This document shows positions 10,212 through 18,138 of a stretch of DNA of 64,000 bases, in pieces. Position 1 is the stretch's first letter; each line of letters starts with the position of its first letter. The notes under the pieces are model-generated. The model had not been told where the DNA came from, did no database searches, and saw only the letters and a program-made list of their open reading frames with translations. The stretch comes from an uncultured Oxalobacteraceae bacterium. GTDB taxonomy: Bacteria; Pseudomonadota; Gammaproteobacteria; Burkholderiales; Burkholderiaceae_D. Where the stretch lies: contig CAIOYD010000010.1 in the NCBI GenBank assembly GCA_903862415.1, positions 37,209-101,208 of the forward strand, in the 5' to 3' direction. Made by a program: the position numbers and the translations under genes.

Positions 10212-10679
10212 TCAAAGAAAACGATCCAGTATTTTACGTCCATGTTTGTTCAGTTTGGTTGGCTGGCGAATTAAAAAATTGATGCCGTGATTATCGGTGA
10301 TGAGCAAACTGTCACCGATGCGGCGGATATCTTCTTCGACCCGCAAGACAAACTCGGTCGCACCCCGGTCTGTGGTCACCGACCAGGTACAGGGGGTGGC
10401 AAAGCTGGAGACCCCGATAATCTGTTCAATTTCGGGTACAAATTCGCGCCCGGATAATTCATCGAGCACCAGTTCACGCACCGACGCCGGCAAATCCAGC
10501 AGACGCTCGATCCAGGCCACCTCGCGTCCATCCTGGCTCACCAGAGCAATGCCATTGTCGGGCGTCTGAATCGGAAACGCCCGCACCGGCATCACACCTT
10601 CGTAGGTTTCTCCAGCAGTGGTCAGGATCAGTTTGCCGAAGGCATTGCGACTGAGTTCAAAAGAAGTGGTTTGCATCAT
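10212..10679 (-). CDS. DUF1854 protein associated with cyanophycin metabolism
   Basis: Small 155-residue soluble protein of the DUF1854 family. Seen: the N-terminal FELSRNAFGKLILTTAGETYEGV and the DGREVAWIERLLDLPASVRELV segment typical of the family. It overlaps the end of the ABC transporter gene by 4 bp (ATGA), which points to coupled translation and joint function. From general knowledge, DUF1854 genes with this ABC transporter recur beside cphA in betaproteobacteria, hence the name; no activity is demonstrated. It is the second gene of a minus-strand unit divergent from the cyanophycin synthetases. Confidence 0.8.
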   Translation of the reverse strand: MMQTTSFELSRNAFGKLILTTAGETYEGVMPVRAFPIQTPDNGIALVSQDGREVAWIERLLDLPASVRELVLDELSGREFVPEIEQIIGVSSFATPCTWSVTTDRGATEFVLRVEEDIRRIGDSLLITDNHGINFLIRQPTKLNKHGRKILDRFL

Positions 10680-12946
10680 TCACCTTCACTGGATTCAATT
10701 AAGACGGCCGCATTCCGGGCTTGCGCCTGATACAGGCGATAGTAAGCGCCCTGCTGTGCCATGAGCACATCGTGCTTGCCTTCTTCCACCACCACGCCGC
10801 GATCCATGACCACGAGCCGGTCGGCTTTATTTAAGGTCGACAGTCGGTGGGCAATCGCGATTGTAGTCCGGCCTTTAACCAGATTATCCAGCGCTTTCTG
10901 AATTTCTTTTTCAGTTTCCGAATCCACCGAGGACGTGGCTTCATCCAGAATCAAAATCTTTGGATCGATCAGCAAGGCACGGGCAATCGAGATACGCTGG
11001 CGTTCACCACCAGACAAGCCCTGACCGCGTTCGCCGACCATGGAGTCGTAACCCTGAGGCAGGCGCAGAATAAATTCATGCGCATGTGCTGCACGGGCTG
11101 CATCCATGATTTCATCACGCGAGGCGTGTGGTTTTCCGTAGGCGATATTATCAGCAATGGTGCCAAAAAACAGGAACGGCTCTTGCAATACCAGACCGAT
11201 ATTGCGACGATAATCGGAGATGGCAAACGAACGGATATCGACGCCATCGAGCAAAATCGCACCCTCGGCAACATCGTAAAAACGGCAGATCAAATTCACC
11301 AGCGTGCTTTTACCGGAACCGCTGTGACCGACCAGACCGATCATTTCACCCGGTTTGATATTGATCGAAATGCCACGATTCACTGCACGATTGCCATAGC
11401 GGAAACCGACTTCACGCAATTCGATATGGCCTTCGACCTTGGTAATTTTGACCGGATTGGCAGGCTCAGGGACGCTCGAGACATGGTCGAGAATATCGAA
11501 CACCCGCTTGGCGGCCGAGGCCGATTTTTGCGTCACTGAAACGATACGACTCATGGAATCGAGTCGTCCATAAAAACGCCCCATCAACGCCACAAACGAT
11601 AACAGCATACCGGAAGTGATTACACCGCGGGAAATCTGCCAGATACCAAACGCCCAGACGATCAGCATACCGATATCGGTAAGCAGCGACACGGTCGGAG
11701 AAAACAGCGCCCAGACTTTATTCAGACGGTCGTTGACCACCAGATTGTGGCGGTTGGCTTCATAAAACCGATTGGCTTCGCGCTGTTCCTGGGCAAACGC
11801 CTTAACTACACGGATACCGGGAATGGTGTCGGCCAGCACGTTGGTGACTTCGCCCCAGACGCGGTCGATTTTTTCAAAACCGTTACGCAAACGGTCGCGC
11901 ACGATATGAATCATCCAGGCAATAAACGGCAGCGGTGCCAGTGTGACCAGTGCCAGCATGGCATTTTGGCGCACCAGAAACACGGAAATCATCACCAGCA
12001 TGATGACGTCAGTAGCAAAATCGAGCAGGTGCAGTGACAAAAACACACAGATCCGATCAGTGCCGCTGCCGATACGCGACATCAGATCGCCGGTGCGTTT
12101 ACCGCCAAAATATTCCAGTGACAGCCGCATTAAGTGTTCATACGTGGCCGTGCGCAAATCCGAACCGATACGCTCCGACACCAGCGCCAGAATATAGGTT
12201 TTGAGCCAGTTCAGCAGCCAGGCCAGCAGTGCCGAGCCCAGCAATCCACCCAGATACAGCGACACTACATACGGATCGATGTGTTTGGTGGTTTGATAAG
12301 GAATGAGTACATTATCCAAAATCGGGCCGGTCAGATACGGCGGCACCAGACCGGCGGCGGTTCCCAGCAGTGTCAGAATAAAGCCGATAAACAGCTGCAA
12401 CTGATACGGCCGGGCAAAACGCCACAGGCGAAACAGTGTACGCGTCGAAGGTGGGGTATGTATCACCTTGGCACAGATCGGGCACTCATCCTGATCCGGC
12501 TCCAGCGGCGCCTTGCAGCTCGGGCAAATCAGCTGATCGGGTTCAACTACCGGCAAACCGCTGAGCTGGCTGTTTTGAAACAGATTGAATTGATCCACAA
12601 ACCGGGTTGCCAGCAAATTCTGGTTCAGGGTAAACCGCCACGAGGCCAGCAAACCGGTAGCATCGACCAATTCCAGATGACCGATCCCGGCGTGATCATG
12701 ATGTTGCAACCGTAAATCCGTGCGGTAATCCCAGCTCTGCCATTGGGTTTCCCCCGGAGCCTGAGTCAACAAACGTGTTTCCGTCGCGACGATGATTCCC
12801 TTTCGGAAATTTAATCGCGCATCCAGGTCAACCTCCAGCACGGTCAGTGCGTTCTCACCTGCGGTGAGTTGTTTTGCAATGATGTCACGCCAACCGGAAG
12901 GCAGGCTGGTTAAGGCAAATTCATCAGCAACTTGTTTCATTGTCAT
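10676..12946 (-). CDS. ABC exporter-type half transporter with N-terminal zinc ribbon, cyanophycin-associated
   Basis: A 756-residue protein. Residues 1-135 form a soluble beta-rich N-terminal region; residues 141-158 are a zinc ribbon, CPSC-X10-CPIC (Cys141, 144, 155, 158). Residues about 180-470 are a six-helix exporter membrane domain and residues about 500-745 a nucleotide-binding domain with Walker A GHSGSGKST, signature LSGGERQR and Walker B ILILDEATSS. It must dimerise to be active. The extra cytosolic N-terminal module is unusual for an exporter. It sits back to back with the two cyanophycin synthetase genes and is coupled to DUF1854, so a role in cyanophycin or dipeptide handling is plausible. 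The substrate is unknown. Confidence 0.85.
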   Translation of the reverse strand: MTMKQVADEFALTSLPSGWRDIIAKQLTAGENALTVLEVDLDARLNFRKGIIVATETRLLTQAPGETQWQSWDYRTDLRLQHHDHAGIGHLELVDATGLLASWRFTLNQNLLATRFVDQFNLFQNSQLSGLPVVEPDQLICPSCKAPLEPDQDECPICAKVIHTPPSTRTLFRLWRFARPYQLQLFIGFILTLLGTAAGLVPPYLTGPILDNVLIPYQTTKHIDPYVVSLYLGGLLGSALLAWLLNWLKTYILALVSERIGSDLRTATYEHLMRLSLEYFGGKRTGDLMSRIGSGTDRICVFLSLHLLDFATDVIMLVMISVFLVRQNAMLALVTLAPLPFIAWMIHIVRDRLRNGFEKIDRVWGEVTNVLADTIPGIRVVKAFAQEQREANRFYEANRHNLVVNDRLNKVWALFSPTVSLLTDIGMLIVWAFGIWQISRGVITSGMLLSFVALMGRFYGRLDSMSRIVSVTQKSASAAKRVFDILDHVSSVPEPANPVKITKVEGHIELREVGFRYGNRAVNRGISINIKPGEMIGLVGHSGSGKSTLVNLICRFYDVAEGAILLDGVDIRSFAISDYRRNIGLVLQEPFLFFGTIADNIAYGKPHASRDEIMDAARAAHAHEFILRLPQGYDSMVGERGQGLSGGERQRISIARALLIDPKILILDEATSSVDSETEKEIQKALDNLVKGRTTIAIAHRLSTLNKADRLVVMDRGVVVEEGKHDVLMAQQGAYYRLYQAQARNAAVLIESSEGE

Positions 12947-13310
12947 TATTATGATTGCTCCGGAGTGTCAGCGTCAGATGTAGCTACGTAAGACGTGACG
13001 AATAAAAATCAGGCAGAAAATCCGTATTCATTGCGAGCAGTTTAGCTAGTAGCTCAATATCAGCAAGTTTAGAGGCTATAAACGTAGCGCTAAAGTAGCA
13101 ATTTACGGTATTCTATTGGATTAGATTACTCGGTGGAAAGTTACTTCAATGCTCGAAAGAATTTTTCGAGAGTATACAATAAGAGTCACGACAGAGATAC
13201 AAACAATGGATGACTGGTAAATTTATCCTTGTAACTGAATGAAACTTACCTGAAAAATTGAAATAACTAAAAACTGGGATATACCCCACATGTTGGTGAA
13301 AATAAAATAA
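12947..13310. other. Divergent intergenic region between the ABC transporter and cyanophycin synthetase genes
   Basis: 364 bp, clearly more AT-rich than the neighbouring genes and without a convincing ORF (the minus-strand 68-codon ORF 13146-13352 runs into cphA2 and has no family features). It must hold promoters for both directions. One candidate for the plus strand is listed separately. No repeat, tRNA or riboswitch was recognised. Confidence 0.6.
13258..13285 (+). promoter_or_regulatory. Candidate sigma-70 promoter for the cyanophycin synthetase genes
   Basis: TTGAAA (13258-13263), 16-bp spacer, TATACC (13280-13285). It would give a leader of only about 20 nt before the ATG at 13311, with GGTGA as a weak ribosome site. 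The match is moderate, so this is tentative. Confidence 0.3.
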
Positions 13311-15497
13311 ATGACGACTAAGAGAGATCTCAAATTTACCCGCGTGACCCATTTGCGCGGACCTAACATCTGGACTTATCGCCCGGTCATTGAAGTCTGG
13401 GTTGATATTGGTGATTTAGAACAGTTTCCCTCCAATACCCTGCCGGGATTGACTGACCGACTCACGAGCTGGCTCCCGAGCCTCATCGAACACCGATGCG
13501 GTGTCGGTGAGCGCGGCGGCTTTGTCGAGCGTCTGCATGAAGGTACCTGGGCAGCCCATATACTGGAACATATTGTACTGGAATTGCAAAATCTGGCCGG
13601 CATGCGTACCGGATTCGGCAAAACCCGTAAGGCTGCCGAGCCCAGTCTGTACAAAATGGCATTTCGCACCCGCCAGGAACAGGTTGGCCGTGCCGCCCTG
13701 GCTGCCGGACGTGAATTATTGCTCGCCGCCATAGAAAACACCCCCTACGACGTCAGCGCCACGGTGACTGAATTGCGCGAATTGTCCGATTCACTCTGTC
13801 TTGGCCCATCAACTGCCCACATAGTCGATGCTGGCACGAACCGGACTATTCCGTGGATGCGCCTGAATGACGGCAATCTGGTGCAACTCGGCTTTGGTAA
13901 AAACCAGCGTCGTATCTGGACGGCAGAAACCGATCAGACCAGCGCGATTGCCGAAGGCATCTCTTCGGATAAAGATTTAACCAAGTCACTGCTCAAATCC
14001 TGTGGCGTCCCGGTTCCGGAAGGCACACTGGTACACAGCGCCGAAGAAGCCTGGGAAGCCGCACAGGATATCGGCCTGCCAGTGGTACTCAAACCGTATG
14101 ACGGCAACCATGGCCGTGGCGTGTCGCTGGATTTGAAAACCGAAGCCGATGTTGTCGCCGCGTTCAAACTGGCAGACCGTAAAGGTGACGGCAGTGCCGT
14201 GATTGTGGAACAATTTATCGCCGGCAATGAACATCGGGTGCTGGTCGTGGGCAAAAAAGTCGTTGCAGTGGCTGCCGGTGAAGCTGCCTGGGTCACCGGT
14301 GACGGCAAATCCAACATTATTGAACTCGTAGACGACCAGATCAATTCCGATCCGCGTCGCGGCACTACCGAAGAATTCCCTCTGAATGCGCTCGGACCGC
14401 AAAATGGCGCCGAAATCATTCTGGAATTGGAACGTCAGGGTTTTACTGCCTATGACATTCCACCCAAGGGACATCCGGTGCTGATTCAGCGCAATGGCAA
14501 TGTCGCCTTTGATGTCACCGATGACATTCATCCCAGCATCGCTGCTATGGCCACACTGGCCGCACGCGTAGTAGGTCTGGATGTGGCCGGAGTCGATCTG
14601 GTGGTGGAAGATATTTCCAAACCACTGAGCTCGCAACGTGGCGCGGTCATTGAAGTCAATGCCGGTCCGGGCTTGCTGTCGCATCTAAAACCTGCCAGCG
14701 GCAAACCACGCGATATCGGTACTGCGATTATTGACCATTTATTCCCCAATCAAGTCAATGGCCGCATCCCCATCGTCGGTGTTGCCGGTTCCAGTGGATC
14801 AACCCTGATTTCCCGTCTGATCGCCCACCTGCTGCATGTCAGCGGTAAACATGTCGGTCTGGCCTGCAGCAATGGCCTGTTTCTGGATCAGCGTCAGATC
14901 GATGTCAAAAACGGCCTCAACTGGGATGCCGGACAACGGTTACTCATCAATCGCTCGATTGAAGCGGCCGTCTTTGAAACCAGCAACCGCATGATATTGA
15001 CCGAAGGTCTGGTGTACGATAAATGCGCTGTCGGCGTAGTCACGGAAATCGATGAAGCCGCCGCGATCAAAGAACTGGCCGAATTTTATATCACCGATGC
15101 CGACAAAGTTGTCAATGTCGTGCGCACTCAGGTCGATGTTATTTTACCCGGCGGTCATGCAGTGCTCAACGCCGACCATCCACGTATCATCGAACTCGCG
15201 GCTATGTGTGACGGCGAAGTCATTTTCTTCAGCGCCAATGCCAGCCTGCCAGCGATCACCACGCATCGTGCCCAAGGTGGGCGGGTAGTATTTTTGCGCA
15301 ATAACAGCATCGTACTGGCTGCCGGCGCCGAAGAATCCGCACTGTTACCACTGTCCTCACTGAAACCGACTAAAGCAGCACAACCGGTGAATGTCATGGC
15401 GGCCGTAGCAGCGGCCTGGGCCCTGAACATTTCGCCGGAATTAATTGAAGCAGGACTGAGGACTTTTGAATCAACGCCGAAAAAATCCCCTTATTAA
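13311..15497 (+). CDS. cphA2: CphA-like cyanophycin synthetase paralogue with degenerate Mur-ligase P-loop (CphA2-type)
   Basis: A 728-residue homologue of cyanophycin synthetase. The N-terminal domain and the ATP-grasp domain (about 215-480) look intact, with VVLKPYDGNHGRGVS and EVNAGPGLLSHL. The Mur-ligase-like domain, which in CphA1 adds arginine, carries GSSGSTL (493-499) where CphA1 has GTNGKTT, so the Walker A lysine is lost. The protein stops about 128 residues short of CphA1, lacking most of the C-terminal ligase lobe. A similar single-site enzyme, CphA2 of cyanobacteria, polymerises beta-aspartyl-arginine dipeptides; by analogy this protein may do so or may be a structural partner. 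It is first in the pair, 70 bp before cphA. The gene symbol is by analogy. Confidence 0.85.
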   Translation: MTTKRDLKFTRVTHLRGPNIWTYRPVIEVWVDIGDLEQFPSNTLPGLTDRLTSWLPSLIEHRCGVGERGGFVERLHEGTWAAHILEHIVLELQNLAGMRTGFGKTRKAAEPSLYKMAFRTRQEQVGRAALAAGRELLLAAIENTPYDVSATVTELRELSDSLCLGPSTAHIVDAGTNRTIPWMRLNDGNLVQLGFGKNQRRIWTAETDQTSAIAEGISSDKDLTKSLLKSCGVPVPEGTLVHSAEEAWEAAQDIGLPVVLKPYDGNHGRGVSLDLKTEADVVAAFKLADRKGDGSAVIVEQFIAGNEHRVLVVGKKVVAVAAGEAAWVTGDGKSNIIELVDDQINSDPRRGTTEEFPLNALGPQNGAEIILELERQGFTAYDIPPKGHPVLIQRNGNVAFDVTDDIHPSIAAMATLAARVVGLDVAGVDLVVEDISKPLSSQRGAVIEVNAGPGLLSHLKPASGKPRDIGTAIIDHLFPNQVNGRIPIVGVAGSSGSTLISRLIAHLLHVSGKHVGLACSNGLFLDQRQIDVKNGLNWDAGQRLLINRSIEAAVFETSNRMILTEGLVYDKCAVGVVTEIDEAAAIKELAEFYITDADKVVNVVRTQVDVILPGGHAVLNADHPRIIELAAMCDGEVIFFSANASLPAITTHRAQGGRVVFLRNNSIVLAAGAEESALLPLSSLKPTKAAQPVNVMAAVAAAWALNISPELIEAGLRTFESTPKKSPY

Positions 15498-15567: not shown

Positions 15568-18138
15568 ATGGAAGTTTCACGTATCAGAGCATTGCGCGGC
15601 CCGAATTTATGGAGCCATCACACTGCCATCGAAGCCATAGTCACATGCGGTAACAACGAATTAAATATCGTCAATCTTCCCGATTTTGAAACCCGTCTGC
15701 GGACACGGTTTCCGGCCTTAAGCGCCTTGCAGCCTACCGGTTATCATGACGCGATTCCGGTCGCCCATGTATTTGAACATGTCGCCCTCGGTCTGCAGGC
15801 CAGTGCCGGTTGTCCGGTGACCTTCAGCCGCAGCACCCAGACGCTTGAACCGGGCGTGTTTCAGGTGGTGGTGGAATATACCGAAGAAGCGGTTGGCCGA
15901 CTGGCCTTTGAACTGGCAGAAAAACTCTGCCTGTCCGCCATGCAGGACAGTTTTTTTGATCTCGACAGTGCACTCGATGACTTGCGTCAACTCGATGAAG
16001 ATGTGCGCTTAGGCCCGTCAACCGGCTCGATCGTACAGGCCGCCGTGGCCCGCAATATTCCCTTCCGACGCCTCACCGATGGCAGTCTGGTGATGTTTGG
16101 CTGGGGCAGTAAACAGCGCCGGATTCAGGCCGCCGAAATGGATTGCACCAGCGCGATTGCCGAAGCCATCGCTCAGGATAAAGAACTGACCAAAAAATTA
16201 CTCAACGCCGCCGGTGTGCCGGTTCCGATGGGACGTTCAGTTGACAGCGCCATCGATGGCTGGCTGGCAGCACTCGATGTTGGCCTGCCGGTGGTCGTCA
16301 AACCGAAAGATGGCAATCAGGGTAAAGGGGTGACGGTCAACATCACCACACGCGAACAACTCGAAGCCGCCTATGTATCGGCGAGCGAATTCAGCGACAA
16401 CGTACTGGTTGAACGTTATTTACCCGGCAGCGATTATCGCCTGCTCGTTATCGGCAATAAACTGATCGCCGCCGCCCGCCGTGATCCGCCACAAGTCGTC
16501 GGCGATGGTGTGAAAACCGTGCGCCAACTGGTTGACCAGGTCAATCTCGATCCCAAACGCGGCTCCGGCCATGCCACTTCACTGACTAAAATCCGCTTTG
16601 ACGATATCGCTCTGGCCAGTCTGGCTACGCAGGGCTTTAACGCCGAATCCGTTCCGACCAAAGGTCGTCGCGTGCATTTGCGCAATAACGCCAATCTGTC
16701 CACCGGCGGCTCGGCCACCGATGTCACCGATGATGTGCATCCGGAAGTCGCTTCACGCGCCGTGGCAGCCGCGCAAATGGTGGGTCTGGATATCTGCGGC
16801 GTCGATCTGGTGTGCGACAGCGTATTAAAACCGATAGAAGAACAAAACGGCGGCATCGTTGAAGTCAATGCCGCTCCGGGATTGCGCATGCATATCTCCC
16901 CTTCCTTCGGCAAAGGCCGTCAGGTTGGTGAAGCCATTGTGTCAACCATGTTTGAAGACGGCAATGATGGTCGCATTCCGATTGTGGCCGTCACCGGCAC
17001 CAACGGCAAAACCACCACTGTGCGCCTGATTGCGCACCTGCTGACCGCCTCCGGTCTGCGTACCGGCATGACCAATACCGACGGCGTATATATCGAAGGA
17101 CAGCGCATCGACAGCGGCGACTGCAGCGGACCGCGCAGCGCGCGCAATGTGTTGCTGCATCCGGATGTGGATGCCGCCGTGTTTGAAACTGCCCGTGGTG
17201 GCGTACTGCGTGAAGGTCTGGCGTTTGATCGCTGCCAGGTGGCCGTGATCACCAACATCGGCACCGGGGATCATCTCGGCCTGAACTACATCACCAGTCT
17301 GGAAGATCTGGCCGTATTGAAACGCGTGATCGTGCAGAATGTCGCCGACAGCGGCGTGGCCGTACTCAATGCTGCAGATCCTATCGTCGCCAGCATGGCG
17401 GCCAATTGTCTGGGTAAAGTAACCTTTTTTGCCGCTGACCGGCGTGAAGCCATCATGGCCACGCACCGCGCTCAGGGCAATCGGGTAGTGTATGTCGAGA
17501 ACAACATGGTCGTCGCAGAAGAAGGCGACTTCAAGCACAGCATCAGTCTTCAGAACGTACCGATTACCCACGGTGGCAAGATAGCCTTCCAGGTCGAAAA
17601 TGTCATGGCTTCGGTGGCTGCGGCCTGGGGCACAGGCATTCGCTGGGAAGCCATTGAAGCCGGTTTAAAAACCTTTGCCAATGACACCGACAATGCACCC
17701 GGCCGGTTTAATTTATTTTCTTATCGCGGCGCCACCCTGATCGCTGATTATGGCCACAATCCGGATGCGATTCTGGCGCTCGTGAATGCAGTGGAAACCA
17801 TGCCGGCCAAACGCCGCTCCGTCGTGATCAGTGGCGCAGGTGACCGGCGAGATCAGGATATCCGGCAGCAAACTGAAATTCTGGGTGCCGCTTTTGATGA
17901 AGTGATTCTGTATCAGGATCAATGTCAGCGTGGTCGTGCCGATGGCGAAGTGGTTGCCCTGCTGCGTTCCGGCCTGAAAAATGCCAAACGCACCAGTGCC
18001 ATCCAGGAAATTCAGGGTGAATTTGTCGCCATCGATACCGCACTCGGACTGCTTTCCGAAGGCGATTTATGCCTGATTCTGGTCGATCAGGTCGAAGAAG
18101 CCTTAGCACACATTGCCAAACGGGTACAGGAAGGCTAA
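15568..18138 (+). CDS. cphA: Cyanophycin synthetase
   Basis: Polymerises aspartate and arginine into cyanophycin, an insoluble nitrogen and carbon store in the cytoplasm, using two ATP sites. The 856-residue length is close to other CphA1 proteins. The ATP-grasp domain (about 215-470) has VVVKPKDGNQGKGV and GIVEVNAAPGLRMH and activates the backbone carboxylate for Asp addition. The MurE-like domain has the intact P-loop GTNGKTT (477-483), ARGGVLREGL, GTGDHLGLNY and the C-terminal lobe with DYGHNPDA, adding Arg to the Asp side chain. It follows the P-loop-defective paralogue and the intergenic hairpin. No cyanophycinase gene is in the window. Confidence 0.96.
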   Translation: MEVSRIRALRGPNLWSHHTAIEAIVTCGNNELNIVNLPDFETRLRTRFPALSALQPTGYHDAIPVAHVFEHVALGLQASAGCPVTFSRSTQTLEPGVFQVVVEYTEEAVGRLAFELAEKLCLSAMQDSFFDLDSALDDLRQLDEDVRLGPSTGSIVQAAVARNIPFRRLTDGSLVMFGWGSKQRRIQAAEMDCTSAIAEAIAQDKELTKKLLNAAGVPVPMGRSVDSAIDGWLAALDVGLPVVVKPKDGNQGKGVTVNITTREQLEAAYVSASEFSDNVLVERYLPGSDYRLLVIGNKLIAAARRDPPQVVGDGVKTVRQLVDQVNLDPKRGSGHATSLTKIRFDDIALASLATQGFNAESVPTKGRRVHLRNNANLSTGGSATDVTDDVHPEVASRAVAAAQMVGLDICGVDLVCDSVLKPIEEQNGGIVEVNAAPGLRMHISPSFGKGRQVGEAIVSTMFEDGNDGRIPIVAVTGTNGKTTTVRLIAHLLTASGLRTGMTNTDGVYIEGQRIDSGDCSGPRSARNVLLHPDVDAAVFETARGGVLREGLAFDRCQVAVITNIGTGDHLGLNYITSLEDLAVLKRVIVQNVADSGVAVLNAADPIVASMAANCLGKVTFFAADRREAIMATHRAQGNRVVYVENNMVVAEEGDFKHSISLQNVPITHGGKIAFQVENVMASVAAAWGTGIRWEAIEAGLKTFANDTDNAPGRFNLFSYRGATLIADYGHNPDAILALVNAVETMPAKRRSVVISGAGDRRDQDIRQQTEILGAAFDEVILYQDQCQRGRADGEVVALLRSGLKNAKRTSAIQEIQGEFVAIDTALGLLSEGDLCLILVDQVEEALAHIAKRVQEG

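Follow-up and report, generated by a model that had tools for sequence, protein, structure and literature searches.

A cyanophycin synthetase paralogue with a retained N site beside a synthetase that has lost it: a possible natural division of the enzyme in Burkholderiales

The window analysed here, a 64,000-nucleotide stretch of contig CAIOYD010000010.1 from an uncultured Oxalobacteraceae bacterium, holds two cyanophycin synthetase genes, cphA' and cphA, 70 bases apart (Table 1). What does CphA', whose Mur-type ATP site is degenerate, do next to CphA? The preliminary description of the locus had offered as answers an enzyme resembling CphA2, a primer subunit or a scaffold for the neighbouring CphA. 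Side-by-side copies of cphA, an adjacent ABC gene, a missing cyanophycinase and the label cphA' itself are reportedly described in Krehenbrink 2002, Fuser 2007 and Adames 2013. CphA' scores above the NCBIfam subfamily model NF010623 (1012 vs 877) and below the equivalog cyanophycin synthetase model TIGR02068 (715 vs 850), which the neighbouring CphA passes. The PF18921 scores, 125 bits for CphA' and 52 bits for CphA, first led us to suspect that the two N domains differ.

Table 1. Features of the cphA'-cphA locus, in window positions; residue names at binding sites follow the published CphA1 enzymes or the protein indicated.
Feature	Position	Strand	Remarks
DUF1854 protein, NF052234 'cyanophycin metabolism-associated DUF1854 family protein'	10212..10679	-	216 bits, cut-off 150
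ABC exporter, NF052233 'cyanophycin metabolism-associated ABC transporter'	10676..12946	-	1359 bits, cut-off 880
Intergenic region, ABC gene / cphA'	12947..13310	.	364 bp, divergent
cphA'	13311..15497	+	728 aa, ATG start; N, G and Mcore modules; no Mur lid
Metallopeptidase motif Cx19HxxEH of CphA'	13497..13571	+	C63-x19-H83-xx-E86-H87; primer-making site of CphA1
ATP-grasp (G) domain of CphA'	13791..14756	+	K221, K261, H267, R309, D429, E448 kept (ATP/acyl-phosphate)
G323 replacing R323 in CphA'	14277..14279	+	G in 100/100 CphA'; R in 98/98 CphA and 18/18 canonical CphA1
Short aspartate loop of CphA', NGN for ANLSTGG	14490..14510	+	S396 deleted, in 100/100 CphA'
L456 replacing R458 in CphA'	14676..14678	+	L in 97/100 CphA'
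Degenerate Mur P-loop GSSGSTL of CphA'	14787..14807	+	residues 493-499
cphA partner	15568..18138	+	856 aa; G and M sites, all Asp-binding residues; N site lost
HVFEH remnant in CphA	15766..15780	+	Cys ligand and F67/R70 loop deleted
Q251 of CphA, position of catalytic H267	16318..16320	+	Q in 98/98; G371, a further CphA, has H
Intact Mur P-loop GTNGKTT of CphA	16996..17016	+	residues 477-483; GxxGK[ST] in 84/84 covering partners

Relatives of CphA' were drawn from related genomes and from 80 named genome records, and a CphA was located next to each wherever the contig extended far enough. Residues were tabulated on SuCphA1 numbering, first for 98 CphA' and 93 CphA and later for 100 and 98; these sequences are not independent, coming from loci of close relatives with a few genomes present twice. 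At the M site, the window CphA' has GSSGSTL for GTNGKTT, as had been pointed out before, and ETSNRM for ETARGG, and it has neither the DH motif nor the lid. Since the last residue of CphA' falls at SuCphA1 residue ~729 and the Mur lid module comprises residues 724-876 in TeCphA1 (PMC9427784), the shortfall of about 128 C-terminal residues noticed in the preliminary description is real and corresponds to the Mur lid module. With P-loop, ARGG, DH and lid all gone from the window copy, its further claim that CphA' cannot add arginine by the Mur mechanism also holds. The P-loop loss is not an isolated error but recurs in relatives: 80 of the 100 CphA' have neither Walker A nor lid, 12 (from Burkholderiaceae, Alcaligenaceae and unplaced ones) have both P-loop and lid, 8 have the P-loop only and none has the lid only, while ARGG is lost in all 100. 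Because no CphA' keeps the lid without the P-loop, the M domain must have decayed stepwise, losing ARGG, then the lid and then the P-loop.

The ATP-grasp half of CphA' had been thought complete. This is true of its ATP side; most of the aspartate pocket is lost. In TeCphA1, ATP binding and acyl-phosphate chemistry depend on K220, K261, H267, R309, D431 and E450, and aspartate is bound by N394, by R323 (to its beta-carboxylate), by R458 (to its alpha-carboxylate) and in the space beside S396; alanine mutants of N394, R323 and R458 are impaired in activity (PMC9427784). CphA' keeps all six residues of the ATP side, H267 in 99 of 100 sequences. Of the aspartate side it keeps N394 only: R323 has become G, R458 has become L, and the S396 loop is deleted. 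The partner CphA retains all four aspartate-binding features. These losses surfaced in an unselected list of 13 changes among 111 positions that are fixed in canonical CphA1, with a hypergeometric P of 0.005, uncorrected for adjacency inside the deleted loop. The loss of R458 would weigh against a free alpha-amino acid or dipeptide being held in the manner of CphA1. The retained ATP and acyl-phosphate residues would argue for an ATP-dependent act on the chain end, or for chain-end sensing.

The N domains show the reciprocal pattern. In CphA1, the Cx19HxxEH motif of this domain forms a zinc endopeptidase site, where cyanophycin is cut to give primers (PMC9262961). The motif is kept in 100 of 100 CphA' (98 of 98 in the earlier table), where C59, H79, E82 and H83 (SuCphA1 numbering) and also H57, F67, R70 and E87 are invariant. 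It is intact in none of the partner CphA, all of which have the Cys, F67 and R70 deleted and the remaining N-site residues partly lost. Conservation across 76 matched pairs (2850 and 2775 comparisons) is 0.74 in CphA' vs 0.60 in CphA for the N core and 0.525 vs 0.73 for Mcore; for the G domain, the 76 pairs give 0.685 vs 0.749. In about 100 CphA' and about 98 adjacent CphA, then, the active sites are divided, the N site lying in CphA' and the Asp and M sites in CphA. This reciprocity of residue loss and retention is seen directly, as are the common origin of the two proteins and their fixed four-gene linkage described below. The earlier suggestion that CphA' is a primer subunit for the neighbouring CphA fits its invariant N site.

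Based on these findings, we propose, leaning to this reading by a little, that CphA' and CphA together form a single split cyanophycin-synthetase system, its two subunits going back to a duplication; within it, CphA' most likely supplies the endopeptidase/primer site to CphA. CphA would perform the ligation, its G site adding the backbone residue and its M site the side chain, and CphA' would add neither Asp nor Arg. We infer catalysis at the N site of CphA' and its association with CphA: the zinc endopeptidase would act either in trans or as part of a mixed CphA'/CphA oligomer, cutting chains into primers or setting product length. The G domain of CphA' would still bind ATP and probably the C-terminus of the chain, so that it could be a docking or sensing module, or a ligase for another amine. 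Such a division can work: TmCphA1, which has no N site, regained primer independence when given the SuCphA1 N domain in trans (PMC9262961). Within one enzyme, synthesis and cutting cannot be balanced through expression (PMC9262961); the pair, if our model is true, is a natural separation of the two. With the peptidase in one protein and the polymerising sites in the other, an assay with a single gene or with the wrong substrate should therefore fail.

Three points stand against the split model. One, the lack of detectable cyanophycin from the R. eutropha H16 genes, is taken up below. Further, the G-domain conservation of CphA' exceeds what mere docking needs, and CphA has Q at the position of H267, whose alanine mutant serves as the G-site inactivating mutant of SuCphA1 (PMC9262961). 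We dropped the stronger argument, that H267Q marks a dead G site in CphA, because Q267 occurs in other CphA (in Chryseobacterium, in G222 and in two extra copies of G022) and the partner CphA of G371 has H. The two additional copies of G022 (L167) are divergent, have altered N sites and lie near a cyanophycinase, and the same genome also has the pair.

How the pair arose can be seen in outline from a quick tree of 70 proteins, made without bootstrap and without CphA2. CphA' forms one clade of 27 rows with the window copy inside (SH-aLRT 100), CphA forms another (SH-aLRT 96), and canonical single CphA1 stand apart (SH-aLRT 100); on this tree, the CphA' clade is sister to the CphA clade, and a single duplication gave rise to both. 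The CphA of G222, a genome of another class, is placed near the duplication. Its locus (L162 5441-7783) has the ABC and DUF1854 genes, and in the protein both the N site and the P-loop are intact, with Q267, R323 and the NLSTGG loop present. It falls outside the betaproteobacterial clade and is a possible pre-split form; the contig ends at the CphA gene, so that there may be a second copy. Of 250 Burkholderiales genomes, the family is present in 99: about 91 have the pair (one pair being cut by a contig end), and eight, from two genera, have a single CphA. The five of these eight that were inspected have an intact N motif, its spacer longer by two residues, as well as R323, the Asp loop, the P-loop and, where the pattern was readable, H267; in four of the five, a cyanophycinase lies next door.

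Several further arrangements were noted in the same survey. In G032 (contig 67, 34257-36411; L014), the partner CphA lies in two frames, possibly from a frameshift or an assembly error. A Mur-related second gene ('Mur ligase family protein') lies beside canonical CphA1 in Ruegeria, Shinella and some Burkholderiales (L150 5817-7553, L192 5318-7123, L193 9686-11440, L194 8803-10539), and Legionella adelaidensis and Deinococcus plasmids have genes matching the N and M parts of CphA and not the G part. G008, a genome of the window's family, encodes six further ATP-grasp proteins of ~590-640 aa that are related to CphA-G and of CphA2 size (L174, L175, L176, L177).

The genes around the pair bear on the nature of its product. 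In all 64 loci with more than 4.5 kb of upstream sequence, cphA', cphA, the ABC gene and the DUF1854 gene occur together in the divergent layout; one pair (G477) lacks an ABC gene in the fetched stretch, and another (G371) has the ABC gene on the same strand. Among 299 Pseudomonadota genomes, all 15 that have the pair encode DUF1854, and G222 is the only other one to do so; the four remaining single-CphA genomes are without it. A search of the open-access literature found no papers on DUF1854. The ABC exporter of the window is extended at its N-terminus, and the extension includes a zinc-ribbon-like CxxC...CxxC stretch (CPSCKAPLEPDQDECPIC). Cyanophycinase was found in 0 of 80 pair loci, and a genome-wide TIGR02069 scan of the window's genome gave no match. 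It adjoins most single CphA1, including those of Deinococcus, Rhizobium, Mesorhizobium, Pelagibacterium, Sphingobium, Ruegeria and Shinella; none was found near the CphA on the Chryseobacterium plasmid. Strong TIGR02069 matches came from genomes in which CphA1 is single or a canonical cluster is present in addition, and weaker ones, of ~430 aa, from some pair genomes. The matches of 135-150 bits to the cyanophycinase model in G003, G007, G009, G015 and G022, in ORFs of ~410-450 aa, are perhaps secreted CphE-type or other S51 peptidases. A lack of cyanophycinase in betaproteobacteria has been noted before (PMC10206079, which calls it 'unanticipated'; PMC5178258; PMC10687191).

From this setting comes the rival that survives best, which we regard as possible though on the unlikely side: the pair would make another isopeptide, shorter or of other residues, which the ABC and DUF1854 proteins move or handle, and CphA' would trim it or, using its Asp-blind ATP-grasp site, cap it with another amine. 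The strict linkage with the ABC and DUF1854 genes and the missing cyanophycinase speak for it. So do the reports from R. eutropha, known to us through papers citing Adames 2013: strain H16 is stated to make no cyanophycin (PMC11362209), and its CphA homologues, overexpressed in the host or in E. coli, to give no detectable cyanophycin (PMC8560796). On these accounts, the N-site substrate may not be cyanophycin, and together with the linked exporter and the missing cyanophycinase they leave room for another product. E215, which in CphA1 holds the Arg side chain of the last cyanophycin unit, is missing from every CphA and from most CphA', and DDDKRGR of SuCphA1 reads DQCQRGR or DACQRGR in CphA; however, canonical enzymes also differ from one another at E215 and at the DDD positions. 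Moreover, the fixed-position scan found that CphA keeps nearly all M-domain positions fixed in canonical CphA1, so we keep a changed M-site amino acid in CphA as no more than a hint, and export is suggested by the linked gene only. A different or exported product in place of cyanophycin seems possible but rather unlikely to us. Slightly more doubtful is the full form of the idea, a divided-site machine making an exported non-storage isopeptide, with CphA' as both endopeptidase and ATP-grasp ligase for an amine other than aspartate; it would explain the missing cyanophycinase and why cyanophycin was not found.

A parallel CphA2, joining beta-Asp-Arg dipeptides with one ATP site, is improbable. 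Like CphA2, CphA' has lost the M P-loop and lid; it has kept the ATP residues of the ATP-grasp domain with H267, and its opened Asp pocket could take a larger acceptor. Yet the N-domain motif is absent from CphA2 (PMC9262961), and on that ground CphA' is most likely not a CphA2. Sequence scores (492 bits to CphA1 vs 181 bits to CphA2) and structure matches of the CphA' AlphaFold model (pLDDT 88.6; TM 0.83 to CphA1, then 0.61-0.65 to CphA2) also favour CphA1, which was always top-ranked in PDB searches with other ATP-grasp queries too; the CphA model was left out at pLDDT 69. The CphA2-style use of beta-Asp-Arg envisaged in the preliminary description is weakened as well, for CphA' has lost R458, which in CphA1 holds the Asp alpha-carboxylate, a group that is also present on this dipeptide. 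Most pair genomes lack a cyanophycinase to make the dipeptides, and M-site mutants of TeCphA1 gain no CphA2 activity (PMC9427784). We therefore rejected this as the best reading.

We give similarly little credence to the reading of CphA' as a scaffold or allosteric activator of CphA with no catalysis of its own. Its fold is kept despite the loss of the M and Asp sites, and dead paralogues that act as activators are known for other enzymes, but a scaffold would have no need of the N-site metal, general-base and support residues and the six ATP-site residues that persist in about 100 sequences. That cphA' is a decaying pseudogene, as the stepwise loss of M-domain elements might suggest, is hardly credible and was rejected, given its conservation beside CphA across many families, the even expression of both copies in Accumulibacter (PMC10687191) and a dN far below dS in every domain where both are estimable. 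Against congeners, dN of CphA' is 0.05-0.08 for G, 0.09-0.12 for N and 0.15-0.26 for M, two to three times that of G, and dS is ~1.2 or more, saturated, or not estimable in two comparisons; the cphA' reading frame is under purifying selection.

The neighbouring pair, the adjacent ABC gene and the lack of cyanophycinase are known already (PMC5178258, PMC10687191, PMC8560796). Within the open-access literature searched, four features are apparently new: the reciprocity of the N and M losses, the missing Asp pocket of CphA', the stepwise M decay and, at residue-level detail, the strict linkage with DUF1854. The pair is present in about a third of the Burkholderiales genomes sampled and is routinely annotated as making cyanophycin for nitrogen storage; its carriers mostly lack cyanophycinase, and R. 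eutropha, by the accounts cited above, made no cyanophycin. Caution is advisable where pair genes are counted as cyanophycin producers in wastewater or environmental surveys.

The split model can be set beside the known enzymes. Like SuCphA1 and TeCphA1 (36% and 34% identity in the structure match), CphA' has N, G and Mcore modules, Cx19HxxEH and the ATP residues of the ATP-grasp domain; unlike them, it lacks the Mur lid, the P-loop Lys and ARGG, together with R323, S396 and R458. It resembles CphA2 of Gloeothece (7ta5) and Stanieria (8fxh/8fxi) in having a G-domain ATP site and neither M ATP site nor lid, and differs from them in the N motif, in its low identity (20-22%), in its origin by a betaproteobacterial duplication and in the loss of R458. 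Very probably the same system are the cphA/cphA' genes of R. eutropha H16, as far as Adames 2013 is relayed in later papers, the 'Group 1' cluster with ABC of PMC10687191 and the 'CphA1/CphA2' of PMC5178258. The closest likeness in organisation is to TmCphA1 combined with the N domain of SuCphA1 in trans (PMC9262961), where the polymerase has no N site and a second protein provides one; that split was built in the laboratory, whereas CphA' and CphA are two natural genes fixed in the split state.
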